Shown here: positions 32,441-55,530 of the stretch, piece after piece
Layout of the letters: every line of letters begins with the position of its first letter
Numbering within the stretch: position 1 is the stretch's first letter
NCBI RefSeq assembly: GCF_014698065.1
Contig: NZ_JACJSI010000028.1
Location: 1-64,000, forward strand
Length of the DNA: 64,000 bases
Direction: 5' to 3'
Origin: Nostoc flagelliforme FACHB-838
GTDB lineage: Bacteria; Cyanobacteriota; Cyanobacteriia; Cyanobacteriales; Nostocaceae
The notes under the pieces: generated by a model
The model's database searches: none
Seen by the model: only the letters and a program-made list of their open reading frames with translations
What the model was told of the DNA's origin: nothing
Position numbers and translations under genes: made by a program

Positions 32441-33172
32441 ATGACCTATTGCCTCAGAATTGCCGACCTTCCTACAAATGAGCGTCCGCGTGAGCGATTA
32501 ATGACGCATGGTGCCAAAATTTTAGCCACAGCAGAGTTAATCGCAATTCTTCTAGGCACCGGTCAAGGGCCAGGAAAATTATCTGCTGTGGGTTTGGGAC
32601 AATATATTTTGAGCGAATTAGGCAAACACCAACGCGATCCTTTGGTAGTTCTGCGAGAAGTTAGCCCTGCTGAGTTGATGCAAATTTCTGGTGTTGGCCC
32701 AGCGAAGGCGACAAGTATTTTAGCGGCAATAGAATTGGGTAAACGCGCTTTTCAATCTCGTCCCAACGATGGCACATTAATTGATAGCCCACTTGCTGCT
32801 GCTGCTACCCTTAGCCAAGATTTGATGTGGCAGATACAAGAACGTTTTGCAGTGGTGCTGTTAGATGTCAAGAATCGCTTATTGGGTACGCAAGTAATTA
32901 CTATTGGCACCGCAACCGAAACCCTAGCCTCTCCTCGTGATATTTTTCGAGAAGTTATTCGTCAAGGCGCAACGCGGGTAATAGTTGCCCACAATCATCC
33001 TTCTGGGAACCTTGAACCCAGCCAAGAAGATATAGAATTGACGCGTCAGTTGTTAGCAGGGGCGCAGCTTTTGGGCATTCCCGTACTAGATCATCTGATT
33101 TTGGGCAATGGCAATCATCAGAGTTTACGGGAAGTGACAACGTTGTGGGATGAACATCCACAGGGAGATTAA
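32441..33172 (+). CDS. radC: RadC-family JAB-domain protein
   Basis: 243 residues. An N-terminal helix-hairpin-helix part (about 60-85, [20 protein letters not shown]) precedes the JAB/MPN+ domain with the metal motif [16 protein letters not shown] (near 183-198) and upstream Glu in DIFREV. RadC proteins are widespread. The old role in DNA repair is disputed, and the JAB domain resembles deubiquitinase-type metalloproteases. The start ATG is followed at once by the conserved [15 protein letters not shown]. It is single, with a strong hairpin downstream. Confidence 0.95.
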
Positions 33173-33284: not shown

Positions 33285-34076
33285 TTACTTACTTTCCTGC
33301 ATACTTCTCACTAATTTAGTCACTAGCTTTCTAGGAGTAAATCTTACAGATTCCGCAAGGAGCTTATTTTTAATTCCAGGAACAACAACAGTTTTGTTTT
33401 CTAATAGACCACGATAGCCGATTTGGGCTACTGTATCCGCAGTCATAATTTTTTGACCGCTTACTAGCTTTGAGTCTTCCATTGCGGCTCTTTGTTGAAA
33501 ACCTGATTCTGTAGGCCCTGGACAAAGTGCTGTCACCGAGACACCTGTACCTTCTAACTCATTAGCGATCGCTTCGGTAAATGATAAGACGTATGCTTTA
33601 CTAGCGTAGTAAACTGCCATCAGTGGCCCTGGTTGAAAAGCAGCAGTCGAAGCCACATTTAATATTTTTCCAGACCCCTGCTTAACCATATCCTTGAGGA
33701 ATAACTTGGTTAAATGTGTCAGACATAAAATATTGACCTGTAGCAATTGCAGTTCAGAATTAAGGTCAATTTCGTTAAATAATCCGTAGGTAGCAAACCC
33801 AGCATTATTTATCAGCACATCAACTCTGATAGATGCTTGTTTTAACTCAGTGAAAATTTCTTCTGGTGCTGATGGGTTAGATAAATCCTTGAATATAACT
33901 TTGACACCAATGCCAAATTTACTTTTAAATTCATCAGCAATTTCATTCAGCTTGTCCACGCTTCTAGCTACTAACACAAGATTGTAACCATCCTGAGCAA
34001 ATAACTTAGCGAATTCATAACCGATGCCGCCAGATGCACCAGTAATAAGAGCCGTTTGTTTGCGATTACTCTGCAT
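33285..34076 (-). CDS. Short-chain dehydrogenase/reductase
   Basis: 263 residues from ATG 34076, preferred over 34142 because GAGAGGA lies before it and the fold starts at once. It is a classical SDR: TGASGGIG cofactor loop (about 10-17), VARS with basic residue for NADP(H), NNAGFATYG, catalytic Ser in NVASTAA, YYASKAYV (YxxxK near 156), and LCPGPTESGF. The family reduces or oxidises hydroxyl/keto groups of small molecules. The substrate is unknown. Confidence 0.93.
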   Translation of the reverse strand: MQSNRKQTALITGASGGIGYEFAKLFAQDGYNLVLVARSVDKLNEIADEFKSKFGIGVKVIFKDLSNPSAPEEIFTELKQASIRVDVLINNAGFATYGLFNEIDLNSELQLLQVNILCLTHLTKLFLKDMVKQGSGKILNVASTAAFQPGPLMAVYYASKAYVLSFTEAIANELEGTGVSVTALCPGPTESGFQQRAAMEDSKLVSGQKIMTADTVAQIGYRGLLENKTVVVPGIKNKLLAESVRFTPRKLVTKLVRSMQESK

Positions 34077-34284
34077 AATTTTTCCTCTCTTAACAGATTG
34101 AACTGGGGATTGGGGACTGGGACAATTTTGATGAGGATTCAAACCCTAACCAAATTGGGAAAAAGACTCTTTCCCTGTACCCAGTCTCGGAGCTAATATT
34201 CCTCCCTGACAAGCTTTAGCTTGTTCGCCTAGGGTCTCGTAGAGAAGTTAGGGAAAGAAAGGGCGCAACCCGTTGAAAACTAAT

Positions 34285-34321
34285 AGACATCTCCAGAAAT
34301 TAAAGTTTTTCGGAGATGTTT
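34285..34321. repeat. MITE-like repeat, short derivative (copy 3)
   Basis: AGACATCTCCAGAAATTAAA, then CGGAGATGTT: both ends of the 13819-type repeat with the middle deleted. It lies in the 34077-34463 gap, which also has heptamer-like GGGGACTGGGA near 34100 and otherwise no gene. Confidence 0.65.
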
Positions 34322-34463
34322 TATGAATCATCAGTCATTAGTAACCTAACGCTCTTTAACCTTACTTATTCTCTCTTCAGAATAATTAAAAAGCACTAAT
34401 TAACTATAACTAATCACTGACTACACTATAACAAGCACTCTCCACAGTACTTAACAATCACAT

Positions 34464-35948
34464 TTATTGCCAGCGCGAAATTTCCAAGCGAACTGACGCG
34501 TTTGTTCCTAAAACTTTTTGTCCACGTTCAGGTAAAGGAACATACGCAACATATATATCAGAACTGGATTCTCGGTTGGAATTTAACTTGATTAATGGCT
34601 CTTTTGCATCAGAATTCCAACTGTATATAGCTCCATAAGTACTATTTGATTCGGCAACATCAGTAATTAGATAGTCAGACCACAGGGGTACTTGGTCAAG
34701 ATGACTATCACGCAACCAATTTGTCTCTTGTTTTGTGAAAGAATGCAGTGCTAAACGCAGAGCATATCTACAGACATTATTATCACTGGCTGAGTTTCTT
34801 GGTATTAAAAAAGCTGTAAATAGAGGAACGGGTTTATCTGTTCTAGTTAACTCTTGTGTGATTGGACAATAATGACCGATCGATTGCTCATATATAGGAA
34901 CAGGAAGACCACGCAAAGCAATTCTAGTTTCCAGTTGATAAAAATTCTTGTCTCGGTCTTTCAGCTGGATATTGCTCAAAGACAGTTTCACTTGGATATC
35001 ACCAAACAAAAAACGTTGCAGGTTTTGATAACCTTCTTCGGAGTTCAATATGCCATAACGTCCACCATGAGTACGGTGAACATAAGCACGATGAGATCCT
35101 GCGATGTAAGCTTTATCTATCTGAACTAGACCATCACTTTTGACCCCCACAGTCTTGCGTGAAAGACCAAAAGCATCTTCATAGTCATGTGCATTAGTTC
35201 CGATTAAAGAAAAAACGCGGTCTGGCGAAAACTTATTCTCTAAACTTTGTAGTTTTTCTAGCTGAAATTTATCGGGTAACTTATCGGTTCGTTGGACACG
35301 AGGTGTTAAGTACTGATACATCCGTTGAGGCCCAAAGTCATCAGAATTATTCAATTGGAACCTGTCTCTAAGTTCTTCAAGCATCCCACTTCCTACCTCA
35401 AAATAAATACCACCATGAGGTGTGGCGTAGGTAAATAATTTGTCAATGTGATCGACGGCTTTCTCACCTTTTTCTGGATAAATCTTTTGAATCAAGCTGC
35501 GGCAAACAAGTCCTCCCATTGAGTGCGCCACAAGGTAAACTTTGGCTGCACCTGTGGTTTGCTTCACATTCTGAATCAGTTTTCTTAAACCACTCGCTAT
35601 CTCTTCCATCTCCTGCCTAACTACACTTGAAGAACCAAAACTAGGTGTAGTTACATCATAAAATCGGTAGATCCAAATAGTTTTATAAAGTTGGTTAGAT
35701 AATCTTTTAATTTGATTGCTCACATTTTGATTGTCAACAATCGGTTGATAACCATGATCGGTCATTAGCCGCAGCAATGGACTCTCGAAAAAAAACTTCT
35801 GGGGATTTTCCTTTTCATCCACTCGAATATGAGTCGAACCATTATTGAATCCATAAAACGGATCATTAACTGTTTGCTCAACATCTTTTTGTGTACCTGC
35901 ATATCCACGAACAAAGATGATTGGTAAATACTGCATATATATCCTCAC
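34464..35948 (-). CDS. Lipase/PGAP1-like alpha/beta hydrolase
   Basis: 494 residues. YLPIIFVRGYAG near the N-terminus resembles the oxyanion strand of lipases (PIxFVHGF). VYLVAHSMGGLVCRSLI (nucleophile Ser near 143) fits LCAT/PGAP1-like enzymes, and TYATPHGGIYFEVG is the typical next strand. A late His in YVHRTHGGRYGI (about 300) may complete the triad. The last 150 residues form an extra beta-rich domain. No signal peptide, so probably cytoplasmic or lipid-associated. It lies beside the cytochrome/flavoenzyme block but is separated by a repeat. Confidence 0.8.
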   Translation of the reverse strand: MRIYMQYLPIIFVRGYAGTQKDVEQTVNDPFYGFNNGSTHIRVDEKENPQKFFFESPLLRLMTDHGYQPIVDNQNVSNQIKRLSNQLYKTIWIYRFYDVTTPSFGSSSVVRQEMEEIASGLRKLIQNVKQTTGAAKVYLVAHSMGGLVCRSLIQKIYPEKGEKAVDHIDKLFTYATPHGGIYFEVGSGMLEELRDRFQLNNSDDFGPQRMYQYLTPRVQRTDKLPDKFQLEKLQSLENKFSPDRVFSLIGTNAHDYEDAFGLSRKTVGVKSDGLVQIDKAYIAGSHRAYVHRTHGGRYGILNSEEGYQNLQRFLFGDIQVKLSLSNIQLKDRDKNFYQLETRIALRGLPVPIYEQSIGHYCPITQELTRTDKPVPLFTAFLIPRNSASDNNVCRYALRLALHSFTKQETNWLRDSHLDQVPLWSDYLITDVAESNSTYGAIYSWNSDAKEPLIKLNSNRESSSDIYVAYVPLPERGQKVLGTNASVRLEISRWQ

Positions 35949-36373: not shown

Positions 36374-38383
36374 TTAGAAAGTTTTCACAAATTCAATTAA
36401 AGCTTTCTTATCTTCATCTGGCAGATTCGAGCCAAAATAATGACCCTCATCTTCAACGAAGTCAGGAGACTTATTAGCTCTTAAAAGCACGCGTGCCAAC
36501 TTACCCTTAATTCCACCACCTGGTTTCAAGTCTTGGAAAAGGCTACTCAGATTGAGAGATGTAATCGCCTCTCTGATATTGATGCTTGCCAGTAAATTTA
36601 CAGGTGTACCTTTAGGAACAGGAAGCCTAAATCTCGGATTCGGATCTCCTGGGGGAAGCTCTAATTTGGTATCTCGATTTGTCCTGCTGATAATTCCTTC
36701 ACGCTTTTCAGGCCACAATAGCTTCTCCATCGCATCCGTATAGGCTGCTACACGCCCTTTTACTGAAGGATCTTCATTGTAAAGTCCTAGTGCGTTGTTG
36801 TGAAGAAGTGGTGCTGTTGCCCAAATACTTATTAGTGAAGGTGTACGGTAATATCCCAAACCACCGTTTGGTATCTTAAATTCGATGGGTTTTTTCTCAT
36901 CGAAGGGGTTGTACAGGGTCAAATTACCTGGTGATGGTAGTTCTTTGTAGGTCTTCGAGGAGAACTGATCCCAAATATGCCCCTTGGTAGCATTTGTCCC
37001 CAGCGATCGCCCCGCATTAGTACCAATTAGTGTTACCGGATAACGCTGGTCATCAGACAAGAAGTTGTGGTCTAAGAAATTACTGCTAAGTACAGACTCT
37101 TCGTACCATTTTTGAGCCTGTTCGGGGTCAGCAGCAATCTCAGCAGTTGGCTTTTTGCTGGAATGGCAACCAGCACAAGTACTGGCAAAAACACGTTTAC
37201 CACGTTTGAGAACTTCCTCGTCTTTAGTTAAGAACTCTTCACCACCTGGCGCATCTTTCAAGTGCATCGGCTTGATGGTTTTCAGGAATGATTCTGCATC
37301 AGCCATGCGTGCTTCTGTCTCTCTCCAGTCTTTGCACTCCTTCCGCGCTTTTTCAATATCAAAAGGTTTTTGGGGAGTTCTGCCTAATAAAGGCTCATGG
37401 AGACTTGTCCAGTAATCACCGCACATCCCAATGTTGACGTAGACGCGTAGTGAGGCTGCTGCCACTCCTGTAGAGTCTGCACCATCCTTGAGAATATGAT
37501 TAACATCCTTGGTTGAACCATCGTTCATCACCTCTGGATATGTGGGGCGATCGCCTAAATTAAAAATGGCGTTAATCGCATTCGGATTGTTGATGTGATC
37601 GGTGGCAATCCGCGAAGTATCAGAAGTCCCCGGTTTCTGAGATTTTAGTACTTGCTTAACAAAACTATTGTCAGCGATACTTCTTCCGAAGAATTCGCTT
37701 TCTTTGATGTACTGATTACCTAATGCTGCTACTAGGTTTTCCCATTTTGGGTGTTCGTTGTCTTTGGGTGGGTTGAGAGGATCTAACGCTACGTGACAGA
37801 TGGCACAAGATTGCCCGATCAAGTAGGGAGGCTCAACTTTTGAGGTTTTGAAATACTCGTCAGGGTTCCATTTTGCCTGGTCGAAATTGGGGTTAGGGAA
37901 TTTACGCAACCCAATAACGCCAGTTGAAAGCGGGTCTTTACATTTATCTAGACGCAATCCGTATTCATCTTTTTCTGTGGATTTTTCACATCCAGGATCG
38001 TTAATTGCGCCATATAACTTGAATCGCTCGTCATGATCTTTTGAGTCAATCAGCTTTAGCAGGTCAGCACTACCATGCGTTCGCTTCGCTAAATCACGAT
38101 AGTACTTAGCGTTACCGCCAGTCCATAAGTACCAAGTGCAACGGCCCCGTTTCTCGGCATCTGTCAAATTCTCCGTTGTGTACTCTGGGAGATAACCGAT
38201 ACCCTCGCAATTATCCGGATATTCACTTGCATCAGTATTGGAGTATTGACTACTTATGGGCGCAGGTGTCTCACTATACTCATCAGCTAGAGCTGTAGGC
38301 GTTCCATAAAAGCCGCAGACTATAAACATAGTCACGAACAGCAGGAGCAGACAGCCCTTAAAAATGAGACTTGTCTTTTTCAT
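36374..38383 (-). CDS. Large di-heme cytochrome c, RoxA/CCP-like
   Basis: 669 residues with a signal peptide (GCLLLLFVTMFIVCGFYG, cut near ALA-D), so periplasmic or lumenal. There are two haem c sites, QSCAICH near 190 and STCAGCH near 401, the second after an EVLKRGKRVFAS lead. GYYRTPSLISIWATAPLLHN (near 520) and the C-terminal DKKALIEFVKTF are shared in pattern with rubber oxygenase RoxA and bacterial di-heme peroxidases. The length matches RoxA-like proteins of about 650-690 residues. The reaction is uncertain: dioxygenase or peroxidase. It is divergent from the flavoenzyme operon with a 670-bp shared control region. Confidence 0.85.
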   Translation of the reverse strand: MKKTSLIFKGCLLLLFVTMFIVCGFYGTPTALADEYSETPAPISSQYSNTDASEYPDNCEGIGYLPEYTTENLTDAEKRGRCTWYLWTGGNAKYYRDLAKRTHGSADLLKLIDSKDHDERFKLYGAINDPGCEKSTEKDEYGLRLDKCKDPLSTGVIGLRKFPNPNFDQAKWNPDEYFKTSKVEPPYLIGQSCAICHVALDPLNPPKDNEHPKWENLVAALGNQYIKESEFFGRSIADNSFVKQVLKSQKPGTSDTSRIATDHINNPNAINAIFNLGDRPTYPEVMNDGSTKDVNHILKDGADSTGVAAASLRVYVNIGMCGDYWTSLHEPLLGRTPQKPFDIEKARKECKDWRETEARMADAESFLKTIKPMHLKDAPGGEEFLTKDEEVLKRGKRVFASTCAGCHSSKKPTAEIAADPEQAQKWYEESVLSSNFLDHNFLSDDQRYPVTLIGTNAGRSLGTNATKGHIWDQFSSKTYKELPSPGNLTLYNPFDEKKPIEFKIPNGGLGYYRTPSLISIWATAPLLHNNALGLYNEDPSVKGRVAAYTDAMEKLLWPEKREGIISRTNRDTKLELPPGDPNPRFRLPVPKGTPVNLLASINIREAITSLNLSSLFQDLKPGGGIKGKLARVLLRANKSPDFVEDEGHYFGSNLPDEDKKALIEFVKTF

Positions 38384-39053
38384 AAAACTCTCTAGTTGTA
38401 AGACCTAAACCTTATTCACTGCACCTCACATTTGCAGAGGCACACTAATAATCCATCAATAATTTCCCATTTTCCAGATTTAGTCTTGGGATATTTTGAT
38501 GATTTAAAATGTACCTTACTGAGGCTCGTTATATATGAACTTACTACACAAATTCGCAAAACGTCATCAATAAACTTTTATACATTTATAAACCAAAAAT
38601 TTAAAAAATTGTAAATTTACAATGGTGTTCAATAACCAATTTGCTATCGTTATATCCGTTACCTATGTATTTGGTGATCTTTGTAACAGATTGTTAAGTG
38701 CTTCTTTTAAGCTTGCCTTAACCTTATAAAAGAGATAAAAAGACGAAAATTTCCATCTCTTTTAAGAATTTCTGTGTAAATACCGTAGGTTTACAAATTG
38801 CAAAAGTCTTTATATAACTGTAAAAACCAATAAAGGTAAATATCTATGTTGAAGGTTGGTAAGTAAAACTAAGTAACAAAAACTTAATACTTAGCGTTTG
38901 ATCCGAAAACCTGCACTGTGGATTTGTAGACATAAAAAACTTCCCTCCCAGAGACGATGAAAATATCAGTCTGTGGCGAGGCTATTAGCGCTACCAAAAA
39001 TTCTGCCACCTAATTTTATTACTGAAAATAACAAGTTAAAGACAGAGGAACAC
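38384..39053. promoter_or_regulatory. Shared upstream region of divergent redox genes
   Basis: 670 bp between the di-heme cytochrome (minus) and the OYE-led operon (plus). It is AT-rich with no ORF and no clear repeat. It must hold both promoters. An AGAGGA site precedes the plus-strand ATG at 39054; upstream in-frame codons from 38973 are an unlikely start. Confidence 0.5.
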
Positions 39054-40448
39054 ATGGAAAACGATATTATTTTTGAACCATTGAGATTTCGTCATCTCAC
39101 AGTAAAAAATCGGATATTTCGCTCTAGTATTTCCGGCAGGTGGGATAACTACGATGGTTCAGGTACTCAAGCCCGAATCAACTGGGAAGAAAAATTTGCT
39201 CGTGGTGGTGTAGGGGCTATTATTAGTTCCTTTGTCCCAGTCGCCATCCGGGGAAGAATTATGCCCAATTACGCCACAATTGACTCTGATAAAACCGTTC
39301 CTTTTTGGCGAAAAGTAGGAGAAAAAGTCCACGAATACGACTGTAAATTTATCTTGCAATTAAGCCATTCTGGGCGACAGCAGGATATTGCTGGTATCGA
39401 AAACTCAGGAAAAAAAGCGTTAAGTTCTACCAGCCAAACTGAGCCATTCCACGGCTTTTTGTGTCAAGCGATGACACTAGCAGAAATTAAACAAACAATC
39501 CAATACTTTGCCGATGGTGCTAGACGTGCCCGTGAAGCAGGTTTGGATGGAGTAGAATTACACAGTGCTAATGGATATCTTTTTAACCAATTTCTCAGTT
39601 CTGGAATTAACGATCGCCAAGATGAATATGGTAGTTCATTAGAGAATCGAGCGCGGTTTTTGCTAGATGTAATTAGAGCAATCCGCAAAGAAGTAGGCAA
39701 CGACTTTCACCTGCAATTCAAAATTAGTGCTGTTGACTATAACAACGCCGTTACCTTTTGGGAAAAACCAGGTAATACCATAGAAGAATCCATCCAAGTT
39801 TGTAAATGGGCGGAAGAAGCTGGAGCTGATGGCGTGCATGTGTCAACTGGTAGCTTATTTCCGCACCCACTCAATCCCATTGGTGATTTTAATTTTGATA
39901 TCATTTCTAAAACCTATGACGCGATGTTATCAAGTGGTGTAGAAACCACACGCAACTACATTTTATTCCGCAAAGCCTTTTTACATCCAATTTTCAATCT
40001 TTTATGGAACCGCGTCAAAAAGCAATTGCCACCTCAGGCATTTAGTGGTGATGACGTAAAAGATCCCAAAATCAAGCAGTTATTAATAGAGAACCAAGGC
40101 AGAAACTTATTAGATTCTAGAGAAATTAAAAAGCACGTTAATATCCCCGTACTATGTACTGGTGGTTTACAGCAGGCTTCTTATATTCGTCAGGCAATTA
40201 ATGATAAGTATTGCGATGGCGTCACAATGGCTCGTACCCTGATTGCTAACAATGACCTAGTTAAATCTTTTCAAGCAGGTAAAGACCTGGCAGACAAACC
40301 CTGTACCTATTGCAATAAATGTCTGCTGAATGTAATTGAAAATCCCTTAGGTTGTTACGAGCAGGATCGCTTCGATAGCTATGAAGAAATGATGGCAGAA
40401 GTAATGTCAGTCTTTCATCAAACTGAGTTTGCAAATTTATCTAGATAA
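39054..40448 (+). CDS. NADH:flavin oxidoreductase, Old Yellow Enzyme family
   Basis: 464 residues from ATG 39054. It is an FMN-dependent TIM barrel: FEPLRFRHLTVKNRIFRSS start, FILQLSHSGRQ (active-site His region), ARRAREAGLDGVELHSANGY, LFNQFLSSGINDRQDEYGS, SLENRARFLLDVIRAIRKEV, and a C-terminal phosphate loop in CDGVTMARTLIANNDLV. A terminal CTYCNKCLLNVIENPLGCYE has Cys spacing like the iron-sulphur site of 2,4-dienoyl-CoA reductase types. It reduces activated C=C bonds or demethylates. It is first gene of a five-gene operon with cytochromes c. Confidence 0.92.
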   Translation: MENDIIFEPLRFRHLTVKNRIFRSSISGRWDNYDGSGTQARINWEEKFARGGVGAIISSFVPVAIRGRIMPNYATIDSDKTVPFWRKVGEKVHEYDCKFILQLSHSGRQQDIAGIENSGKKALSSTSQTEPFHGFLCQAMTLAEIKQTIQYFADGARRAREAGLDGVELHSANGYLFNQFLSSGINDRQDEYGSSLENRARFLLDVIRAIRKEVGNDFHLQFKISAVDYNNAVTFWEKPGNTIEESIQVCKWAEEAGADGVHVSTGSLFPHPLNPIGDFNFDIISKTYDAMLSSGVETTRNYILFRKAFLHPIFNLLWNRVKKQLPPQAFSGDDVKDPKIKQLLIENQGRNLLDSREIKKHVNIPVLCTGGLQQASYIRQAINDKYCDGVTMARTLIANNDLVKSFQAGKDLADKPCTYCNKCLLNVIENPLGCYEQDRFDSYEEMMAEVMSVFHQTEFANLSR

Positions 40449-40513
40449 AAAGCGATGGGTATTAAATTGACAATTTCGCTTACAGATAATCTCGGCAATA
40501 TAGGGAGTGTTTC

Positions 40514-41980
40514 ATGACTCAACAAACAAACCCTACCCAACTCCCGACTTCAATCAAGGGAGTTTTCCAGCGAATTTGGGTTGTGATTGTGGGTGTTGTA
40601 GCAGTAGCAGTCTTTTTGCTTTGGCCTGTTTTGTCTAACTCCCCGGTGGATTATGCTGACATTGAAAACCACTTTAAATATGGTTCAATCGGCAGCGAAC
40701 CCATCAATGGCATCCCTTACTGGATTTGGAAAGTTTTACCAGAACTATTCCCAGATAAATTACCTGGTAAAGGTTATACATCCTTGGAATTTATCAAAGA
40801 ACCTGATAAAGATTTGCCTATAGGTTTTTCGCAACGGAGAGTTTTTATTGATCGCATTGGGTTGAATTGTGCTGTATGTCATACAGGAACGCTGCGAGAT
40901 ACCCCGAATAGCGAACATCAAGTGATCACTACGATGCCTGCTAATGTACTTAATTTGCAGGGATATATCAAATTCTTATCAGCAGTTGGTGTGGATGAGC
41001 GCTTTACTGCTAACCGGATGTTGCCAGAAATTGAAAAAATCAGTGGTGGTCTTAATCCCATTCAAAAATTACTTTATCGCTTTATTGCAATTCCCCAAAC
41101 TAGAGATGCGCTAATTAATCAGGCATATCGACTTAATTTTGTTGAAAAACAACCAGATTGGGGGCCAGGTAGAGTAGATACTTTTAATCCTTATAAAGCA
41201 ATTCAATTCCATTTTCCAATGGATAAATTGCGTGAGGATGAACTGATTGGTACTTCTGATTTCCCCTCAATTTGGAATCAAAAACCCCGCGAAGGATTGC
41301 AGTTACATTGGGATGGTAATAATACTTCGGTTGATGAACGCAATAAGAGCGCAGCTTTAGGAACTGGAGTCACACCCACCACCATTGATTTGCCTCGGAT
41401 TGATCGTATCGCCGATTGGCTGTGGGAACTACCACCACCAAAATATCCCTACGAAGTTAACGAAACTTTAGCGACCACAGGAAAACCACTCTTTGAAAGT
41501 AATTGCGCTAGTTGTCACGCTTTTGGTGGCGCTTATACAGGCAAAGTTGTTCCAATTCAAGAAATTGGAACAGACAGGCATCGCCTAGATTCATTTACTT
41601 ATGAAACTATCTCTAACCAAAATACCTTGTACGCGGGTTATCCGTGGCGCTTTAAAAATTTCCGCAAGACTAATGGCTATGCAAATATGCCCCTTGATGG
41701 TGTTTGGTTACGCGGCCCTTATTTACACAATGGTTCAGTCCCCACCTTACGGGATTTATTAGAAAAACCAGAGAACAGACCACAAGTATTCTATCGGGGC
41801 TATGACGTTATTGATAGAGCAAAAGTTGGCTTTGTCTCTGATGTTGCCGAAGAAAATGGTAAAAAATACTTCAAATTTGATACAAAACTTGAAGGTAATA
41901 GCAATAGCGGTCATTTGTATGGCGTTGATCTCTCCCCAGAAGAGAAAGATGCAATTGTTGAGTACATGAAGAAACTTTGA
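40514..41980 (+). CDS. Membrane-anchored di-heme cytochrome c, copy A
   Basis: 488 residues. One N-terminal membrane anchor (IWVVIVGVVAVAVFLLWPV, about 22-40) is followed by HFKYGSIGSEPINGIPYWIW. Haem c sites are CAVCHTG near 119 and CASCHAFGG near 332. GVWLRGPYLHNGSVPTLRDL near 395 and C-terminal EEKDAIVEYMKKL are typical of the di-heme peroxidase/RoxA-like superfamily. Copy B (42012) is a clear paralogue with the same order of motifs. It lies in the periplasm or lumen and may accept electrons from the flavoenzymes. 65 bp separate it from the OYE gene. Confidence 0.88.
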   Translation: MTQQTNPTQLPTSIKGVFQRIWVVIVGVVAVAVFLLWPVLSNSPVDYADIENHFKYGSIGSEPINGIPYWIWKVLPELFPDKLPGKGYTSLEFIKEPDKDLPIGFSQRRVFIDRIGLNCAVCHTGTLRDTPNSEHQVITTMPANVLNLQGYIKFLSAVGVDERFTANRMLPEIEKISGGLNPIQKLLYRFIAIPQTRDALINQAYRLNFVEKQPDWGPGRVDTFNPYKAIQFHFPMDKLREDELIGTSDFPSIWNQKPREGLQLHWDGNNTSVDERNKSAALGTGVTPTTIDLPRIDRIADWLWELPPPKYPYEVNETLATTGKPLFESNCASCHAFGGAYTGKVVPIQEIGTDRHRLDSFTYETISNQNTLYAGYPWRFKNFRKTNGYANMPLDGVWLRGPYLHNGSVPTLRDLLEKPENRPQVFYRGYDVIDRAKVGFVSDVAEENGKKYFKFDTKLEGNSNSGHLYGVDLSPEEKDAIVEYMKKL

Positions 41981-42011
41981 AGGACACTTTAGCAAGGAGA
42001 AACCTAAGTTT

Positions 42012-43448
42012 ATGGCAATACTTAAGTCAAAATTAGGGAAAATAATCACCTCAATTGCTGTAGTTATTGTCCTTCTTTTTGGGGTTGTGGGTTATGCGGG
42101 ATGGTACAACCTTTTCCGCGAAGTTCCTAGCGAAGTTTACAAGTCACCAGAGGATCATTTTAAATATGGTTCTATTGGTACAGAACAGGCGCAAGGTGTA
42201 CCATATTGGATTTGGTTAGTATTGCCGCGTATATTTCCCGATAAGTTACCAGGGCCAGGCGGTTATACTTCTTTAGGAATTACATGGGAAGAAGGTAAAG
42301 AGCTACCAGTGGGTTTTTCTAAAAAAACCATTGGGTTTCCGAGAGTTGGAATAACTTGTGCTGTTTGTCATAATGCTACTTATCGAGAAAACCTCAAAGA
42401 TAAGCCAACAATCATTGCAGCTGGGCCGTCGAATAAATTTGATTCTCAAGGCTATATTCGTTTTCTTAGTAACGCTGCTAGCGACTCCAGATTTCAAGCT
42501 GACTATATCCTTGACGAAATTAAATATAGCCATGAGTTTCCCTGGTGGGAAAACCTGCTTTATCGTTTTGTAATTATTCCCCAAACAAAGAAAGGGCTGC
42601 TACAACAAAAAGCTGACTTTGCTTGGACTGATTCTCGTCCCAATTGGGGGGCGGGTAGAATTGACCCGTTTAACCCTGTGAAGTTCACTACTTTAAGGTT
42701 GCCTAAAGATGACACCATTGGTAACTCAGATATGATGCCTTTGTGGAATCAGAAGCAACACCAAAACTTTGCCCTGCATTGGGATGGTTTAGAAACTTCG
42801 CTGCGAGAAACAGTGCAGACTGGCGCTATTGGTGACGGTGCAACTAAAGAATCTCTACCAGTAAAGGATCTCCAACGGGTAGAAGATTATATTTCGGAAT
42901 TACCACCTCCTAAATATCCGTTTGCAGTTAATGAGCAACTAGCTACACAAGGGAAAGGTATTTTTAGCAGTACCTGTGCATCTTGTCACGCATTTGGCGG
43001 TGAAAGAACTGGTAAGGTGATTCCTGTTGAAGAAGTGGGAACTGACCGCCACCGTCTAGATATGTGGACGCAGCAAGCAGCAGATACTTACAACAAATTT
43101 GGTGATGGCTATCCTTGGGACTTCAGCGAGTTGCGGAAGACTAATGGTTATGTATCTGTCTCCCTTGATGGTCTTTGGTTAAGAGCGCCTTATCTCCATA
43201 ACGGTTCGGTGCCATCCTTACAAGACTTGTTAGAAAAACCAGAGAATCGTCCCCAATCTTTTTACCGAGGATTTGATGTTTACGACCAGAAAAAAGTTGG
43301 CTTTATTTCCGAAGGAGAAGAAGCACAACGTGTAGGTTTTAAATACGACATTAGTGTTCCCGGCAATAGTAATCAAGGACATCTCTATGGCACTGATTTA
43401 CCCGCCAAAGAGAAACAAGCTTTAGTCGAATATCTTAAAACTTTATAA
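42012..43448 (+). CDS. Membrane-anchored di-heme cytochrome c, copy B
   Basis: 478 residues, paralogous to the preceding gene. Membrane anchor IITSIAVVIVLLFGVVGYAG; HFKYGSIGTEQAQGVPYWIW; haem sites CAVCHNA near 116 and CASCHAFGG near 322; GLWLRAPYLHNGSVPSLQDL; terminal KEKQALVEYLKTL. Both copies keep ENRPQ[VS]FYRG[YF]DVxD[QR]xKVGF. Two similar cytochromes next to each other may form a heterodimer or act on two steps (inference). It starts 31 bp after copy A and ends 7 bp before the next gene. Confidence 0.88.
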   Translation: MAILKSKLGKIITSIAVVIVLLFGVVGYAGWYNLFREVPSEVYKSPEDHFKYGSIGTEQAQGVPYWIWLVLPRIFPDKLPGPGGYTSLGITWEEGKELPVGFSKKTIGFPRVGITCAVCHNATYRENLKDKPTIIAAGPSNKFDSQGYIRFLSNAASDSRFQADYILDEIKYSHEFPWWENLLYRFVIIPQTKKGLLQQKADFAWTDSRPNWGAGRIDPFNPVKFTTLRLPKDDTIGNSDMMPLWNQKQHQNFALHWDGLETSLRETVQTGAIGDGATKESLPVKDLQRVEDYISELPPPKYPFAVNEQLATQGKGIFSSTCASCHAFGGERTGKVIPVEEVGTDRHRLDMWTQQAADTYNKFGDGYPWDFSELRKTNGYVSVSLDGLWLRAPYLHNGSVPSLQDLLEKPENRPQSFYRGFDVYDQKKVGFISEGEEAQRVGFKYDISVPGNSNQGHLYGTDLPAKEKQALVEYLKTL

Positions 43449-43455
43449 CCAAGCT

Positions 43456-44736
43456 ATGAATAAATATGCTGTTTGGTTTCGCCACATCGTCTGGCTAGGT
43501 ATTATTCAAGATTGGGTAATTGGCTTGCCGGCGATCTTTGCACCGAATTGGTTGCTGGAATTACTTCACCAAAGACCTAGCCAAGACCCGGTATGGACTT
43601 CGTTTGCTGGGTTGTTAGTGGTTCTGCTGTCGTTGTTCTACATTCCTGGAGCAAATGACCCCTACCGTTACACTCCCAACGCCGTATTAGCGACCTTTGC
43701 CCGCCCGCCTGGAGTTCTCTTCTTTTTCTTTCTTTACCCCAATATTTATCCTGCCTTCGGGATTATTGACTTAGTTTTGTGCTTATTCCAAATCCCATTG
43801 TTGATACTGACTATGCTCAACAAACCTCAACCTTCTACCCCAGACAACGATGTTTTCGAGTATGACGGGTCTACCTACAAAGAAGTAAAAGAAGTTGGTT
43901 TTAGTGGGCCCTATGGTGAACCATTGCCTTACCAACAAGGTGTGGGACTGACAACCTTTGTCCAATTGTTTAATGACGCAGCGCGGAATTTGTTCGACAG
44001 GCGAGATATCCGCCCCCATTACGACAAGCTAATCCACGCTAATGGTGTTTGCTACACAGGTCTTTGGAAAATCACTGAGGATTCACCTTACACGGGCTAT
44101 TTTAGCAAGGGTTCGGAAGGTTTAGTATTCGCTCGTCTTTCCGTTGCTGGTGCTGGAATTAAACGGGGCGATCGCAGGGCCTTAGGTTTAGCTGGCAAGG
44201 TTTATCCTACCCTCAATCCTGATGAAAAGGCAAAACCAGGTAATTTCGTGACTGTTGATTATCTGACAGGCATCAAGACGAAGCATATTACCGATACTGA
44301 GTTAACTAACTTTCCTGACGTTGGCCCAGATATTGGAGCCAAACTTGTTAACCGCGTGATTTTCCGACTAGTAGATAAAAGACCAGGGTTTCGCCAAGTC
44401 TTTCCGATCTCCACCCTCGGTGTCGAGCCAGGAGGCAAGGTTGTTACCCCAGACTTGTTTATGCTCAGAGTGGCAGAAGGCACACCTAAAATCGATGCGG
44501 AAGACTTTCGGGATGAACTGCGGCTAGAAAAGTATCCTAACCATACCTTGGTCTACACCATCAACGTCAAAAACTTCGATGAAAAAGAGTGGACGAAGTT
44601 GGGTGTTATTGAGTTGAATGACTATGCCATCTGTGAGGGTTGTGATAAACGGATACACTTTTGGATTCCCCGCGATATCCCTGTACCAAAAAGAGATAGC
44701 CTTGCCCGCCCTTCAGACCCTGTAGTGATTAAGTAA
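43456..44736 (+). CDS. Membrane domain fused to catalase-like haem domain
   Basis: 426 residues. The first 125 contain three or four membrane helices (HIVWLGIIQDWVIGLPAIFA, FAGLLVVLLSLFYI, GVLFFFFLYPNIYPAFGIID). From about 170 the soluble part reads HYDKLIHANGVCYTGLWKI and GYFSKGSEGLVFARLSVAG, matching the catalase core (VVHAKG distal His, FSKGxxxPVFVRFS), then DRRALGLAGKVYPT. The distal His is visible near 191, but I cannot identify the proximal Tyr ligand or the NNxPVF motif. It may act as peroxidase, hydroperoxide-converting enzyme or non-haem relative. Translationally close to neighbours (7 and 5 bp). Confidence 0.7.
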   Translation: MNKYAVWFRHIVWLGIIQDWVIGLPAIFAPNWLLELLHQRPSQDPVWTSFAGLLVVLLSLFYIPGANDPYRYTPNAVLATFARPPGVLFFFFLYPNIYPAFGIIDLVLCLFQIPLLILTMLNKPQPSTPDNDVFEYDGSTYKEVKEVGFSGPYGEPLPYQQGVGLTTFVQLFNDAARNLFDRRDIRPHYDKLIHANGVCYTGLWKITEDSPYTGYFSKGSEGLVFARLSVAGAGIKRGDRRALGLAGKVYPTLNPDEKAKPGNFVTVDYLTGIKTKHITDTELTNFPDVGPDIGAKLVNRVIFRLVDKRPGFRQVFPISTLGVEPGGKVVTPDLFMLRVAEGTPKIDAEDFRDELRLEKYPNHTLVYTINVKNFDEKEWTKLGVIELNDYAICEGCDKRIHFWIPRDIPVPKRDSLARPSDPVVIK

Positions 44737-44741
44737 ATTAT

Positions 44742-46328
44742 ATGAGCCAGCAATTTGATGTCATCATTATTGGCAGCGGCTTTGGTGGGTCAGTAGTTAC
44801 CTGCCGTTTGGCTGAATCAGGAGCGCGGGTTTTGGTGTTAGAACGCGGTCGGCGTTGGACTAAAGACCAATACCCACGTCAAGCCAAAGATGCCTGGATT
44901 TATGAACACACCCAGCCGCAAAAATATAATGGCTGGCTCGATTTACGTTTCTTTAAAGGGATGGCTGTAGCTCAGGGGGCGGGGGTTGGTGGTGGTTCTC
45001 TGTGCTATTCCAGCGTGGTTTTAGAAGCAAATCCCACGCGATTTGAGCAAGGCTGGCCACCGGAAATTACTTACAGTGAATTGCTGCCTTACTACGATCG
45101 CGTGCGAAAAATGATGGGTGTGCGTCCTATACCTCCAGGACAGCATACCCAACGGGCAAAATTGATGCAACAAGCGTCGCAAAAGGTGGGATATAGCGAT
45201 CGCTTCCAAAGTATGCCCTTAGCAATCTCCTTCGATCCAGACTGGAACTACCAACTGGAAGACCCCTTGAATGAAAAGCACTCGCGGCAATTTGTCAATG
45301 CCCAAGGGCAAAAACAAGGCACTTGTATCCATCTGGGTAATTGTGATTTAGGGTGTGATGTTCACGCCAAGAACACCCTCGATTTGAACTATATCCCGGC
45401 TGGAGAAAACAAAGGTGCAGAAGTGCGATCGCTCCACTTGGTACGCTATATTCAACCAGATGAGGGCGGCTATCGCGTCATCTTCGACCGCATCGAAGAC
45501 GGCAAACTAATTCGTGGTGAAGAAAGGGCCAAAATAGTTGTCATCGCCGCAGGTTCCCTTGGTTCTACTGAGTTGCTATTAAATAGCCGCGATAAGTACC
45601 GCACTTTACCTAAAATTAGTCAGCAACTTGGTAAAAATTGGAGTGCCAATGCCAACGTTCTTACCCCCGACTTCTACGGTAAAGATGTTGAAGTTAAACA
45701 GTCCATTGGCCCAACTATTACCGCAGGTATGGACTTTACCGACGGTAGCTTTGAAGGTGAAAGTTTTATTATTGAAGATGATGGTTTTCCCAATATGTTG
45801 CTCAATGCCATTAGCAGCAAAGTGAATTCTGGCAGATTCAGCCTATTCGCCCTAGCTTTACGCAACCATTTGCAACGTGGACTGGACGAAAAGAATCCCT
45901 TAAGCAATGTTATGGTTTGGCTAGGTGCGGGTGTTGATGCTGCCGATGGAAAACTTTCTCTCGGTCGCAACTGGCTCAAACCTTGGGAAACAGACTTAAA
46001 ACTTGACTGGAATATCCAGCGCTCAAAGTCTGCAATTGATGCGATACTGAATGTGCAAAAGCAACTTTCCCAAGCTAACGGGGGTAAACTTTACATTCCT
46101 TTATACTGGTCAGTTCTCCGCAGTTTGTTGACAGTGCATCCTCTGGGAGGTTGCAAAATGGGAACAACTGCTGAAAATGGCGTTGTCGATCATAAAGGCG
46201 AAGTCTTTGGCTACAAAAATCTTTACGTCGCAGACGGGGCAATTTTACCTCAAGCTGTTGGACGCAACCCTTCTATGACTATTGCTGCTTTAGCAGAACG
46301 GGTGGCTCACTTGATGGTGAGCAACTAA
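44742..46328 (+). CDS. GMC-family flavoprotein, cholesterol-oxidase-like
   Basis: 528 residues. FAD-binding VIIIGSGFGGSVVTCRLAES (residues 8-27), LVLERGRRW, and QGAGVGGGSLCYSSVVLEAN typical of cholesterol oxidase/ChoD-type GMC enzymes. LGNCDLGCDVHAKNTLDLNY contributes cysteines. The C-terminal active-site block VHPLGGCKMGTTAENGVVDH and GRNPSMTIAALAERVAHLM are present. It oxidises alcohol groups of sterol-like or other hydrophobic substrates. It is last gene of the operon, 5 bp after the catalase-like gene, which suits removal of peroxide or use of its product (inference). Confidence 0.92.
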   Translation: MSQQFDVIIIGSGFGGSVVTCRLAESGARVLVLERGRRWTKDQYPRQAKDAWIYEHTQPQKYNGWLDLRFFKGMAVAQGAGVGGGSLCYSSVVLEANPTRFEQGWPPEITYSELLPYYDRVRKMMGVRPIPPGQHTQRAKLMQQASQKVGYSDRFQSMPLAISFDPDWNYQLEDPLNEKHSRQFVNAQGQKQGTCIHLGNCDLGCDVHAKNTLDLNYIPAGENKGAEVRSLHLVRYIQPDEGGYRVIFDRIEDGKLIRGEERAKIVVIAAGSLGSTELLLNSRDKYRTLPKISQQLGKNWSANANVLTPDFYGKDVEVKQSIGPTITAGMDFTDGSFEGESFIIEDDGFPNMLLNAISSKVNSGRFSLFALALRNHLQRGLDEKNPLSNVMVWLGAGVDAADGKLSLGRNWLKPWETDLKLDWNIQRSKSAIDAILNVQKQLSQANGGKLYIPLYWSVLRSLLTVHPLGGCKMGTTAENGVVDHKGEVFGYKNLYVADGAILPQAVGRNPSMTIAALAERVAHLMVSN

Positions 46329-48930: not shown

Positions 48931-51900
48931 TTATTCTGCATCATCGTCAATTACTGCACTGCGATCAAGTATTAGTAAGTTGCGAAGTTGGTCTGTATCC
49001 AGTTCTGTCAACCATTCTTCACCAGCACCTACAACTTGTTCAGCTAGTTGTTTCTTACTTTCAATCATGTCATGAATTTTTTCTTCTAAAGTGCCTGTGC
49101 AAACAAATTTATGTACTTGCACATTCCGGGTTTGACCAATTCGAAATACTCTATCTGTGGCTTGATTTTCCACGGCTGGATTCCACCATCTATCAAAGTG
49201 GAATACATGATTTGCTCGTGTTAAATTCAGTCCGACACCACCCGCTTTCAGGGAAAGAATCATAATCGGTGGCCCTTGAGGATCGTGTTGGAAACGGTCG
49301 ATCATCTCCTCACGTTGTTTTTTGCTGGTACTGCCATATAAAAAGAATATTTCTCGCCCAAGCTGTTTTTCTAAATAGGGTTTAAGTAACTTACCCCACT
49401 CAGCAAATTGTGTGAAAATTAGAGCGCGATCGCCTTCTGCTAAAACTTCTTCTAACATTTCTTCTAGCCGCAGAAGTTTTGCTGAATTATGTTGCTCTAA
49501 TGTCGCCTGTTTCAAATATTGGGCTGGGTGATTGCAGATTTGTTTAAGTTTAATTAACAAAGCTAAAATCATCCCTCGACGTTGCAATCCTTCAGCAGAT
49601 TCTATCTCTACTAAAGATTGTTCTACAATTTGTTGATAAAGTGCAGCTTGTTCACCAGTTAAACCGCAAAATACGGTCATTTCTTGCTTATCTGGTAAAT
49701 CTTGAATGATCTCGCGATCGCTTTTCAATCGCCGCAGTATAAATGGCTGAACTAATGAACGTAATTGAGTCAAAGAAGCGGTATCACCATACTTTTCAAT
49801 TGGCATGGCAAACCGACGCTGAAAAAATTGCTTGTTGCCTAAATACCCTGGATTGAGAAAATCTAAAATAGACCATAGTTCTTGCAGCCTATTTTCTACA
49901 GGTGTACCCGTCAACGCAATCCGAAATGTCGCTTCTAATTCCCGGACTGCTTTTGACTGCTTCGCCTCTGGATTTTTCACATTCTGGGCTTCATCTAAAA
50001 CAATTATCTGCCAAGAGACACTTTGCAATGATTTGATATCTCGATGAAGCAGTGAGTAGCTGGTAACGATTAAATCGTGCTTTTTCACTGCTTCTAAAAA
50101 CGCTTTTCCTTTTGGGCGTTTGTCACCGTGATATTGCAAAATTTTCAGGCTTGGTGCAAATTTATTGACTTCCCTTTCCCAGTTGCCTAAAACAGAAGTT
50201 GGACAAACTAGCAGTGTTGGATTTTCTAATACATCCTGCTCTTTTAAATGTAACAAAAAAGCAATAAACTGGATGGTTTTACCGAGTCCCATGTCGTCTG
50301 CGAGACACGCGCCTAAGCCCCAACGTTCCAAGAAAGACAGCCAAGCAGCACCACGTTCTTGATAAGGCCGCAACTGTCCTTTAAAGGCTGCTGGTGTAGG
50401 CAAAGGTGCGATCGCTTGATTATTGCTTAACGCCCCAATTAACTCTTGCAATGCCCCAGATGCCTCAAAGCTGACCACTGGTAATTTTTCAATTACTTGG
50501 GTATCCCCTGTACTGAAACGCAAGGCATCTTCCAAGGAAAGGGCCATTTGATCTTTGCGAGTGGTAAAAAAAGTTTGGGCTGTCTTAATGTCTTGGGGGC
50601 GCAATTCCACCCACTCACCGTTAATTTCTACTAGCGGACTATTTAAAGCCACAAGTTTATCAAACTCAGCTTTGGAAATAGTTTGTCCTCCAATTGCCAA
50701 TTGCCATTGGAAATTTAGCAGACTCTGCAACCCTAAACGCCCCTGCTTTTTCTTTGGGGTTTCGGCTGAAATTTTCAAACCCAAACGATTCGCCCATCCT
50801 TCGCGGTTCGCTAAACTGGGAGGCAAAATTACTCCTAAACCACTGTCTTCTAACCTCCAAGCTACAGCTTTGATAAATTCATAAGCTTGCATGGGGGTGA
50901 TCCGAGAAAATTGAGGATATTCGGTTTCAAAACTGGGTGCGATCGCTGGATATAATCTGGAAGCTACCCCCAAACCTCGCAAAAATGTTTCTTGTGGTTG
51001 CTCAATTGTCCGATTTTCATAAACCAATCGTTCAAGTGGATTATTCCAAATAGTTGCCGCATCCACCACAAATTCAGGATCATCAGCCGCTTGCAGGAAA
51101 TACGCCAATGTCCACTCTGTTTCGCCAGACTCTGGAGAACGCAGTTGAAAACAGGTACGAAATAGAGTTTTAAGAGTTAATTGGTATTGTAGCGGCATAG
51201 TCCAAGCCTTTAGTGCCGCTTCCAGTCGTTTGAGTTCAATTGAATCTGCATTAACTGTATGAGATGCACTAGTTAAAGCTTGCAACCACTGCCGCACCCC
51301 AGATGATAAAGATGCAATCGCCTTAGCTTCAGTTGCAGGTTGAGAACCCGCCATCCCGCGCACTTGGGCATCTATCGTACTGTTAAGAAATCCCAAAAGT
51401 AATTCTTGAGGTTCAGTAGGGAAGTTTATATAAAGTAGGGATTGGGAAAACTCCTCGCCAGTCCCCAGCCCCCAGTCCCCAGTCCCTAGTTCCTCCTGAT
51501 AAGTCCGACAAACCAACGGCATATTCGCAGAAAATTTTTCTAAGCGAGTTCCATCTACAGCACTATCTAAAAGTACTTGCCATTTAGCAGCAGCACCATC
51601 TGATTGTCGGTTAATTGTTGGTAAAAACTTACACCGTGAGATTAAATCTAAACTCCACCGGGAAACTTGCGACCAAAAACGTAAATCTCCTCCTAAAAAG
51701 GCATCTTCCCCTTTAGCAGCATTTAAGGGAACAGCAGCGAGAAATTTTACCGCCTCGCTGGGGTTGAGACAAAAACCTTCAACTCGCCACGGTTGCAAAT
51801 ATTGTGGGGAGTCTGTATCTAGCCCTAAGCTGGCAGAATGTACCGGGAAAATCCCTGCTGTTCCTTCGCTACTGCCTTCTGGGATATAAGTTGGCACGGC

Positions 51901-52212
51901 AATTATCTGCGACTGCGTTGGCATTATCTGGGTAGGACTGGCGGCTTTACGTGTTTGCCCAGTAGTAGCCATGGCTCCGCCAACGCCAGGGGCGAACGCA
52001 ACTTGAGGTTGCTGGATGAAGTTGGTAATTGCCATGTTCTGGGAAACCAACCACTCACTCAACTCCACTGATGTCATTGCCAATGGATGTAATGGGATAT
52101 CTCCAGATCCATTAGACTCAAAATTCACTCGTGGCGATCGCCAAGTTTCCCCCCAAATAAATAAACAACCATTTTGATTTTTTAGTAACCAATTACAGTG
52201 TAAAATCGCCAT
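48931..52212 (-). CDS. SNF2/Swi2-family helicase-like ATPase
   Basis: 1093 residues. The first 500 are variable, as in bacterial SNF2 proteins, and include the low-complexity insert noted at 51459. The ATPase core has LADDMGLGKTIQFIAFLLHL (Walker A near 637), VCPTSVLGNW, IVLDEAQNVKN (DEAQ box near 737), ALTGTPVENR, then helicase C motifs LIFTQFAEWG, FLYGSTSKKQREEMIDRF, SLKAGGVGLNLTRANHV and DRVFRIGQTRNVQVHK. It remodels or moves along DNA/nucleoprotein using ATP. The length is normal for the bacterial group. Confidence 0.94.
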   Translation of the reverse strand: MAILHCNWLLKNQNGCLFIWGETWRSPRVNFESNGSGDIPLHPLAMTSVELSEWLVSQNMAITNFIQQPQVAFAPGVGGAMATTGQTRKAASPTQIMPTQSQIIAVPTYIPEGSSEGTAGIFPVHSASLGLDTDSPQYLQPWRVEGFCLNPSEAVKFLAAVPLNAAKGEDAFLGGDLRFWSQVSRWSLDLISRCKFLPTINRQSDGAAAKWQVLLDSAVDGTRLEKFSANMPLVCRTYQEELGTGDWGLGTGEEFSQSLLYINFPTEPQELLLGFLNSTIDAQVRGMAGSQPATEAKAIASLSSGVRQWLQALTSASHTVNADSIELKRLEAALKAWTMPLQYQLTLKTLFRTCFQLRSPESGETEWTLAYFLQAADDPEFVVDAATIWNNPLERLVYENRTIEQPQETFLRGLGVASRLYPAIAPSFETEYPQFSRITPMQAYEFIKAVAWRLEDSGLGVILPPSLANREGWANRLGLKISAETPKKKQGRLGLQSLLNFQWQLAIGGQTISKAEFDKLVALNSPLVEINGEWVELRPQDIKTAQTFFTTRKDQMALSLEDALRFSTGDTQVIEKLPVVSFEASGALQELIGALSNNQAIAPLPTPAAFKGQLRPYQERGAAWLSFLERWGLGACLADDMGLGKTIQFIAFLLHLKEQDVLENPTLLVCPTSVLGNWEREVNKFAPSLKILQYHGDKRPKGKAFLEAVKKHDLIVTSYSLLHRDIKSLQSVSWQIIVLDEAQNVKNPEAKQSKAVRELEATFRIALTGTPVENRLQELWSILDFLNPGYLGNKQFFQRRFAMPIEKYGDTASLTQLRSLVQPFILRRLKSDREIIQDLPDKQEMTVFCGLTGEQAALYQQIVEQSLVEIESAEGLQRRGMILALLIKLKQICNHPAQYLKQATLEQHNSAKLLRLEEMLEEVLAEGDRALIFTQFAEWGKLLKPYLEKQLGREIFFLYGSTSKKQREEMIDRFQHDPQGPPIMILSLKAGGVGLNLTRANHVFHFDRWWNPAVENQATDRVFRIGQTRNVQVHKFVCTGTLEEKIHDMIESKKQLAEQVVGAGEEWLTELDTDQLRNLLILDRSAVIDDDAE
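51459..51490. repeat. Heptamer repeats inside the SNF2 gene
   Basis: CCCCAGCCCCCAGTCCCCAG and CCCTAGT form four or five units on the plus strand. On the coding strand they give GTGDWGLGTGEEF, inserted in frame between CRTYQEEL and INFPTEP. Confidence 0.75.
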
Positions 52213-55249: not shown

Positions 55250-55530
55250 CGTATGCTTCTCTAATTAGTTGCAATCTTAACTTGATAGCAAGAAGACAGT
55301 TAATAAATGTTTTAAACTCGCCTATACCTGTTGAGCAACGTTATTACATTATTTATATTATTTTGGCAAGCCGTAATTAAAGTAATTTAAACTATACCTT
55401 TTATGTATTTACAAATTGAGCAGATTGTCTGATCATAACGACACAAGACAAAAGATGATGAACAAAACTTTTTTTTATAAGAAGTGTTAGTTTATGTAAT
55501 TTGTCTGATGAATGTTATATCAAAAATCTC

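Follow-up and report, generated by a model that had tools for sequence, protein, structure and literature searches.

A conserved gene cluster around paired di-heme cytochromes in Nostoc flagelliforme: a candidate fatty-acid oxygenation system

The oleate diol synthase of Pseudomonas aeruginosa, PA2077/PA2078 (FadCcp), is an adjacent, paralogous pair of RoxA-type di-heme proteins which acts on oleate. The two proteins have 634 and 624 residues, the phenylalanine F317 is kept, and one partner is without the inter-heme tryptophan (PMC4496055). Judged by published features, it appears to be the nearest known system to, and the functional precedent for, a locus of Nostoc flagelliforme FACHB-838 which is described here. 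This locus lies within positions 1-64,000 of contig NZ_JACJSI010000028.1; the whole stretch of 64,000 nucleotides is termed the window. At its centre are two paralogous di-heme cytochromes, CYTA and CYTB. They are accompanied by an old yellow enzyme family reductase (OYE), a protein in which a membrane domain (MEMB) is fused to a putative, distant catalase-related domain (CAT), a GMC-family oxidoreductase (GMC), and a third, divergently encoded di-heme cytochrome (CYTX). The gene cluster is a real, conserved bacterial system, more than a chance assembly, and apparently has not been described so far. We read it as a fatty-acid oxygenation (oxylipin) system, with a probability of roughly 0.55.

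Like PA2077/PA2078, CYTA and CYTB are an adjacent, paralogous, exported pair with two CxxCH motifs each, the MauG motif PY-[FL]-HNGSVP, and a C-terminal axial histidine. The inter-heme tryptophan is lost in one partner in Pseudomonas and in 6 of 23 aligned CYTB rows here, but it is kept in the window CYTB. Unlike the Pseudomonas proteins, the window pair is short (488 and 478 residues) with N-terminal anchors, and F317 is not phenylalanine. The linkage to OYE, CYTX and MEMB, and in some relatives to a lipoxygenase (LOX) or a fatty-acid alpha-dioxygenase (alpha-DOX), is a further difference. A genus-level search of 119 genomes for PA2077/PA2078 relatives found mostly one copy per genome, belonging to a family whose open frame is about 612 residues long. 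CYTA has the same fold as the rubber oxygenase RoxA (PDB 4b2n). Unlike RoxA, to which it is 23% identical on the alignment, it has histidine in place of F301 and alanine or leucine in place of F317; CYTA and CYTB are also about 170 residues shorter, membrane-anchored and paired. A published table gives phenylalanine at F317 for every RoxA and RoxB it covers (PMC6311187).

In Nostoc punctiforme, the fatty-acid heme dioxygenase 10S-DOX reportedly works with a catalase-related hydroperoxide lyase (HPL) (Brash 2014, as recounted in PMC9579011 and PMC13049297). By that description the likeness is that alpha-DOX adjoins a CAT relative in two relatives of the window locus (L035, L054). The differences are that the dioxygenase is of alpha-DOX type, that CAT is far from typical catalases, and that the di-heme pair and OYE are extra. 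Coral fusions of catalase-related allene oxide synthase (AOS) or HPL with LOX (PMC5617202) likewise pair a catalase-like domain with an oxylipin dioxygenase. The fusion partner of CAT is instead a membrane domain, and a putative match is clear only at the distal-histidine block.

Of the 195 genomes examined from the order, 17 gave a match to CYTA as query (E up to 1e-60). All 17 neighbourhoods were inspected, and OYE is linked in 14: the window genome, G024, G027, G031, G054, G084, G096, G101, G120, G121, G135, G160, G186, and G187. A transposase gene lies within the linkage in G084, which was still counted. OYE is not linked in G018, G072 and G129, the last being near a contig end. A wider scan compared a CYTA alignment with the contigs of GTDB genomes, and the best 80 loci, from many phyla, were examined. 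The counts are sample figures, and the gene counts are lower bounds because contig ends truncate some of the loci; L103 and L104 come from one genome, and L087 and L021 are apparently one contig. At least two cytochrome segments are present in 67 of these loci, CYTX in 56, OYE in 29, MEMB in 26, GMC of any subfamily in 21, alpha-DOX in 7, and LOX in 4. Loci with OYE, the kind to which the window belongs, carry MEMB (25 of 29), CYTX (20), GMC of subfamilies a and c (12), and LOX or alpha-DOX (9). Among the 51 loci without OYE, two other families, C3 (36) and C4 (32), are common, MEMB occurs once, and 13 have neither C3 nor C4. An earlier, sequence-only reading of the window had treated the genes as one pathway; OYE, CYTA, MEMB, CYTB and CYTX are indeed linked across phyla rather than scattered. 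A literature search by titles and abstract starts found nothing about this locus; it covered open-licence full texts only, which is weak evidence of absence.

C4 (for example L080:7786-9942) is a protein of about 720 residues with CxxCH and no Pfam match, found in operons without OYE; C3 is a short protein family, also without a Pfam match, beside C4. A further candidate family (cluster 6, 603 residues) was dropped, as it consists mostly of open reading frames (ORFs) antisense to cytochrome genes in GC-rich genomes.

CYTA and CYTB are 49% identical. Both are members of NCBIfam NF040606 (di-heme-cytochrome C peroxidase; 185.5 and 178.1 bits, cut-off 150) and match the RoxA-like cytochrome domain PF21419. 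CYTX scores 42.5 bits against NF040606 and is a non-member; it is also below the cut-off for PF21419. Three di-heme cytochromes, of which CYTX was called RoxA/CCP-like, had been claimed from sequence: each of the three does have two CxxCH motifs, and the families just named are matched clearly by CYTA and CYTB but weakly by CYTX. A simple hydropathy scan finds one N-terminal hydrophobic segment in each. RoxA is the single CYTA match under E 0.001 in Foldseek (E 7.5e-13) and also ranks first by profile (E 4e-28); a CCP/MauG-type fold is also among the fold matches. In CYTA, H123, H335, H405, H467, H265-W266-D267-G268 and E275-R276-N277 are invariant in 33 of 33 aligned rows, W266 being equivalent to Trp302 of RoxA. 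Pocket positions of CYTB vary among the aligned rows. In two weak alignments, one residue apart, the position of RoxA F317 is A281 or L282 in the window CYTA and A281 or I282 in CYTB, never phenylalanine; position 282 is phenylalanine in 14 of 33 CYTA rows.

A tree of 120 CYTA and CYTB rows (rows labelled by best BLAST match to the window pair; quick method with midpoint rooting and SH-aLRT as the sole support measure) has 55 CYTB and 1 CYTA on one side, and 59 CYTA and 5 CYTB on the other. Those five adjoin a large GMC-hydrolase protein and branch below the 59 CYTA rows. Both sides span Cyanobacteriota, Acidobacteriota, Nitrospirota, Pseudomonadota and more. Since the two proteins form two multi-phylum groups, the pair looks old and retained together. 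CYTB is shortened to its N-terminal half, with CYTA whole, in L054:7687-8397 (236 residues, one CxxCH) and L036:2212-2847 (211 residues).

The clue to the substrate comes from the genes linked to relatives. Positions 36374-41984 of the window are 90% identical in DNA to a close relative, L045. Past 41984, CYTB drops to 79%, and nothing further is common to the two. In L045, CYTB is directly followed by a lipoxygenase (PF00305, E 6.4e-62) and then by a pair of small genes; CAT and GMC occupy this place in the window and L055. Because the likeness ends here, with CAT-GMC in one locus and LOX in the other, the 3' half of the operon looks like an exchanged cassette. LOX is also found downstream of CYTB in L028, L046, and L050-L053. 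Among the best 80 loci, those with alpha-DOX belong to Cyanobacteria, Alpha- and Gammaproteobacteria and a Kiritimatiellota genome; the gene is also present in L025, L027 and L216. The L025 protein matches PDB 4kvj ('fatty acid alpha-oxidase') from end to end (E 1e-125), and the seven copies of the cluster all keep WWD-x-SQIY and YR[ML]H. One operon of Nostoc sp. FACHB-152 (L054) consists of alpha-DOX, a CAT relative, OYE, CYTA, the short CYTB and MEMB, with gaps of 7, 3, 19, 34 and 195 bp. A cytochrome P450 is present in L025 and L027. Patatin-like proteins in L021-L024 are weak matches (under the Pfam cut-off in the two scanned); L022 has a true patatin. Because some relatives carry LOX, alpha-DOX, P450 or patatin-like genes, the oxylipin option is favoured from the list of hydrophobic substrates which the sequence-only reading had offered; a hydrophobic substrate is supported, and no positive support was found for its hopanoid, sterol or isoprenoid options. 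We therefore favour fatty acids or oxylipins over sterols, hopanoids and isoprenoids as the substrate class, and the chemistry of the operon is probably of fatty-acid/oxylipin type.

The six linked lipoxygenases examined (L045:12495-14147, L028:12961-14595, and L050-L053) all end in ...NSINT, with threonine at the C-terminus in place of the isoleucine which we take to be the usual LOX iron ligand. The linked heme peroxidase was also considered as Nostoc 10S-DOX; this was rejected on E-values (1e-125 for alpha-DOX, 5e-14 for cyclooxygenases) and on the FtdsF block reported for 10S-DOX, found in none of seven copies, although 10S-DOX itself was not compared directly.

In the proposed oxylipin pathway, a lipase-type hydrolase would release an unsaturated fatty acid. 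A dioxygenase would then make a fatty-acid hydroperoxide: this would be LOX or alpha-DOX in those loci where the gene linkage is seen, and elsewhere an unlinked LOX (the window genome has one) or perhaps CYTA itself. CYTA and CYTB would be held in the membrane by their anchors, with the hemes facing the periplasm or lumen, and would work together on either the fatty acid or the hydroperoxide made from it. CYTA, with its invariant heme pocket, is the likely catalyst, and CYTB, an ancient paralogue whose pocket is relaxed, is the likely electron-transfer or second-step partner. MEMB would sit in the membrane with them, and the putative, distant catalase-related domain fused to it in this genome would convert the hydroperoxide to an aldehyde, a ketone or an allene oxide, in the manner of coral cAOS/cHPL. 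OYE, as an Fe-S enzyme, would reduce a conjugated enone, enal or dienoyl product, and GMC and an SDR-family oxidoreductase would adjust alcohol and carbonyl groups. CYTX, an exported third di-heme protein, may pass electrons or act on released product.

To our knowledge, few bacterial oxylipin pathways have been characterised. A bolder version of the oxylipin reading is possible, though doubtful: the cluster would be an undescribed, cross-phylum oxylipin machine, in which CYTA and CYTB, as an old membrane-anchored heterodimer, represent a novel class of fatty-acid hydroperoxide isomerase or oxygenase. The heterodimer would have a dedicated Fe-S ene-reductase as partner, would be fed by interchangeable dioxygenases (LOX, alpha-DOX), and its products would be finished by likewise interchangeable tailoring modules (CAT, GMC, P450), as a prokaryotic counterpart of plant LOX-AOS-OPR routes. 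The related di-heme pair, found from cyanobacteria to Acidobacteriota, Nitrospirota and Proteobacteria with a reductase of its own and exchangeable dioxygenases, would extend such pathways to many phyla. There would be tens of clusters for substrate prediction, and the role of oxylipins in cyanobacteria could be tested by gene removal and lipidomics.

Several observations weigh against the oxylipin reading. LOX, alpha-DOX and P450 are all missing from the window locus; in this genome LOX is encoded on contig C24, and C706 carries an ordinary catalase, both outside the locus. The fatty-acid link falls short of the whole cytochrome family, as only two of the 51 loci without OYE have a fatty-acid dioxygenase (alpha-DOX in both, LOX in none). 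Within the order, both genes are over-represented in genomes with CYTA, which speaks for the reading: LOX is present in 9 of the 17, compared with 39 of the 178 without it (Fisher p 0.008), and alpha-DOX in 4 of the 17, compared with 10 of the 178 (p 0.023). However, these tests ignore relatedness, and L045, L046 and L050-L053 are close kin. Alpha-DOX lies within 10 kb of CYTA in three of its four genomes (G054, G084, G160) and on another contig in G031. LOX is linked to CYTA in one of nine (G186); in the others it is on another contig or more than 1 Mb away. As F317, which PA2077/PA2078 keep, aligns to Ala281 or Leu282, the oxygen chemistry of CYTA may be different. CAT adds further difficulties. 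Pfam gives no family for any of its five aligned members at E up to 10, PF00199 included; single-sequence and profile searches of the PDB gave no relevant match; an AlphaFold model from three sequences reached pLDDT 30 and was used for no fold search; and the near-C-terminal tyrosine of the relatives in L030, L035, L054 and L130 is absent from the window CAT and from the L055 copy.

The main rival, which we consider unlikely, is defence against lipid hydroperoxides: CYTA/CYTB would be an anchored peroxidase drawing electrons from photosynthetic or respiratory cytochromes, OYE and SDR would detoxify enals, and there would be no deliberate product. The CCP/MauG-type fold among the CYTA matches fits this, the invariant polar residues E275, R276, N277 and H265 would suit a peroxidase pocket, and an Fe-S OYE fits enal or dienal clean-up. 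The wide spread of the family, including loci without any dioxygenase, points the same way, and a detoxifying role has been proposed for PA2078 (PMC4496055). It is improbable that the system cleaves a double bond in an isoprenoid, carotenoid or hopanoid as RoxA does, with OYE, GMC and SDR acting on the ketone or aldehyde ends. RoxA ranks top for CYTA by both fold and profile and its Trp302 is kept, but the RoxA/RoxB/RoxC equivalog models score CYTA at 60/60/84 bits and CYTB at 55/62/76 bits, with cut-offs of 900-1000, and F317 is phenylalanine in neither. Moreover, fatty-acid enzymes make up several of the recurrent neighbours, and no isoprenoid-specific family emerged from the neighbour domain scans that were run. 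Sterol- or bile-acid-like catabolism, with a cholesterol-oxidase-like GMC and a BaiCD-like OYE as key enzymes, is more improbable still. The sequence-only reading was right that GMC resembles cholesterol oxidase (NF058674) in so far as this is its best NCBIfam match; however, the score is 258.2 bits against a curated cut-off of 850. OYE has BaiCD as its best match, at 188 bits against 825, and the long second half of BaiCD (a 642-position model) is absent. GMC is also a variable add-on, as the window subfamily is found in 2 of the best 80 loci and other GMC subfamilies in 14 and 5.

OYE, CYTA, CYTB, CAT and GMC are five co-directional genes (Table 1). ORFs were found at the coordinates first reported for them, and the reported intergenic gaps of 65, 31, 7 and 5 bp are exact. 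CYTX is divergent from OYE, with 589 bp between the annotated ends. No sign of a split operon was seen in a low-powered promoter and terminator scan (20 promoter sites and 17.6 in shuffles; terminators 4 and 8.5).

Table 1. Genes of the cluster and its flank in the window
Feature	Position	Strand	Evidence
SDR-family oxidoreductase, recurrent flanking gene, probable accessory	33285..34142	-	PF00106 E 3.3e-48
Alpha/beta-hydrolase (lipase/PGAP1-like), probable accessory	34464..35948	-	PF07819, PF01674 above cut-off
CYTX, probably exported di-heme cytochrome c, distant RoxA/CCP relative	36374..38383	-	CxxCH at 193, 403; N-terminal hydrophobic segment
OYE, Fe-S-type old yellow enzyme family reductase (suggested)	39054..40448	+	PF00724 E 6.1e-61
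CYTA, membrane-anchored di-heme cytochrome, RoxA fold, probable catalytic partner	40514..41980	+	488 aa
CYTB, paralogous membrane-anchored di-heme cytochrome, pocket more variable	42012..43448	+	478 aa
CAT, MEMB membrane domain (~aa 1-125) fused to putative distant catalase-related domain	43456..44736	+	MEMB relatives, hhalign
GMC-family FAD oxidoreductase, cholesterol-oxidase-like subfamily	44742..46328	+	PF05199/PF00732

The OYE frame opens at a GTG at 38973; the ATG at 39054, which would give 464 residues, is the more likely start, as in the Nostoc relative L055. C-x2-C-x2-C-x10-C is kept in all 31 OYE ORFs of the cluster family, which suggests an Fe-S-type old yellow enzyme. We take this to be the four-cysteine Fe-S motif of the 2,4-dienoyl-CoA reductase/BaiCD group, although the spacing is not identical to the one usual in that group. 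Close relatives also carry the lipase-like and SDR genes (33285-35948) next to the cluster: the SDR family is in 6 of the best 80 loci and also in L020, L025, L027 and L045, and the hydrolase is in 5 (L050-L053, L055) and also in L045.

GMC and CAT are variable add-ons, outside the core. The window GMC is 68% identical to the GMC at the same operon position in L036 and is unlike that of alphaproteobacterial loci; the GMC genes appear to stem from repeated recruitment. In L113, L114, L118, L119, L120 and L029, a single cytochrome lies near a double protein, GMC joined to an alpha/beta-hydrolase, which has about 1140 residues but is shorter in L113, at a contig start. Window GMC and CAT may belong to one pathway, on the grounds of operon position, of the copies in L036 and L055, and of the genes to which CAT relatives are linked in L054 and on a Mesorhizobium plasmid.

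The membrane/catalase-like fusion had been noticed from sequence. The fusion itself is real: the first 125 or so residues of CAT match a small membrane protein, the stand-alone MEMB of other loci, where it lies between CYTA and CYTB. The MEMB-CAT fusion is seen in the window and L055 only; MEMB is fused instead to a C3 domain in L024 and, by match pattern, in L021. The likeness to catalase is weak, and the C-terminal part is a putative, distantly catalase-related domain. In single hhalign comparisons, CAT (residues 126-426) matches true catalases with E 0.0019 and 14% probability, IHANG lying over the VHAKG distal-histidine block, and catalase-related cyanobacterial proteins with E 3.6e-4 and 37% probability; one control profile gave E 0.55. 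Matches to Na/Ca-exchangers (best E 0.0058) and TAL effectors were taken as chance. Catalase-related AOS/HPL are reported to have a distal T66-H67-N137 and a proximal Y353 (PMC5617202). In CAT the histidine appears to be kept (H194), the threonine to be isoleucine, there is no clear asparagine, and the C-terminal tyrosine is missing. Both MEMB-fused CAT proteins have C-x2-C (residues 393-396 in the window) in place of the tyrosine of the relatives; this could reflect a changed heme ligand or loss of heme.

Matches to the C-terminal part of CAT were found in one of 386 genomes of the phylum, that of the window itself, and weakly in G054 and G147 among the 195 genomes of the order; relatives of this part follow alpha-DOX in L035 and L054. 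Among plasmids, one record has a CAT relative, Mesorhizobium plasmid pOM4 (L221:13593-26160). Here a CYTX relative (E 5e-178) is directly followed by a subfamily-a GMC gene of 4.7 kb, and the CAT relative lies 3.7 kb beyond this pair, with three opposite-strand genes between. An HMM search of 28 kb of pOM4 found no CYTA/CYTB or OYE.

Other genes surround the cluster in the window. RadC is encoded upstream (32441-33172), and an SNF2-family helicase with DUF3670 downstream (48931-52212). A formylglycine-generating-enzyme-like protein (PF03781) is encoded at 55501-56880, near a polynucleotide phosphorylase gene.

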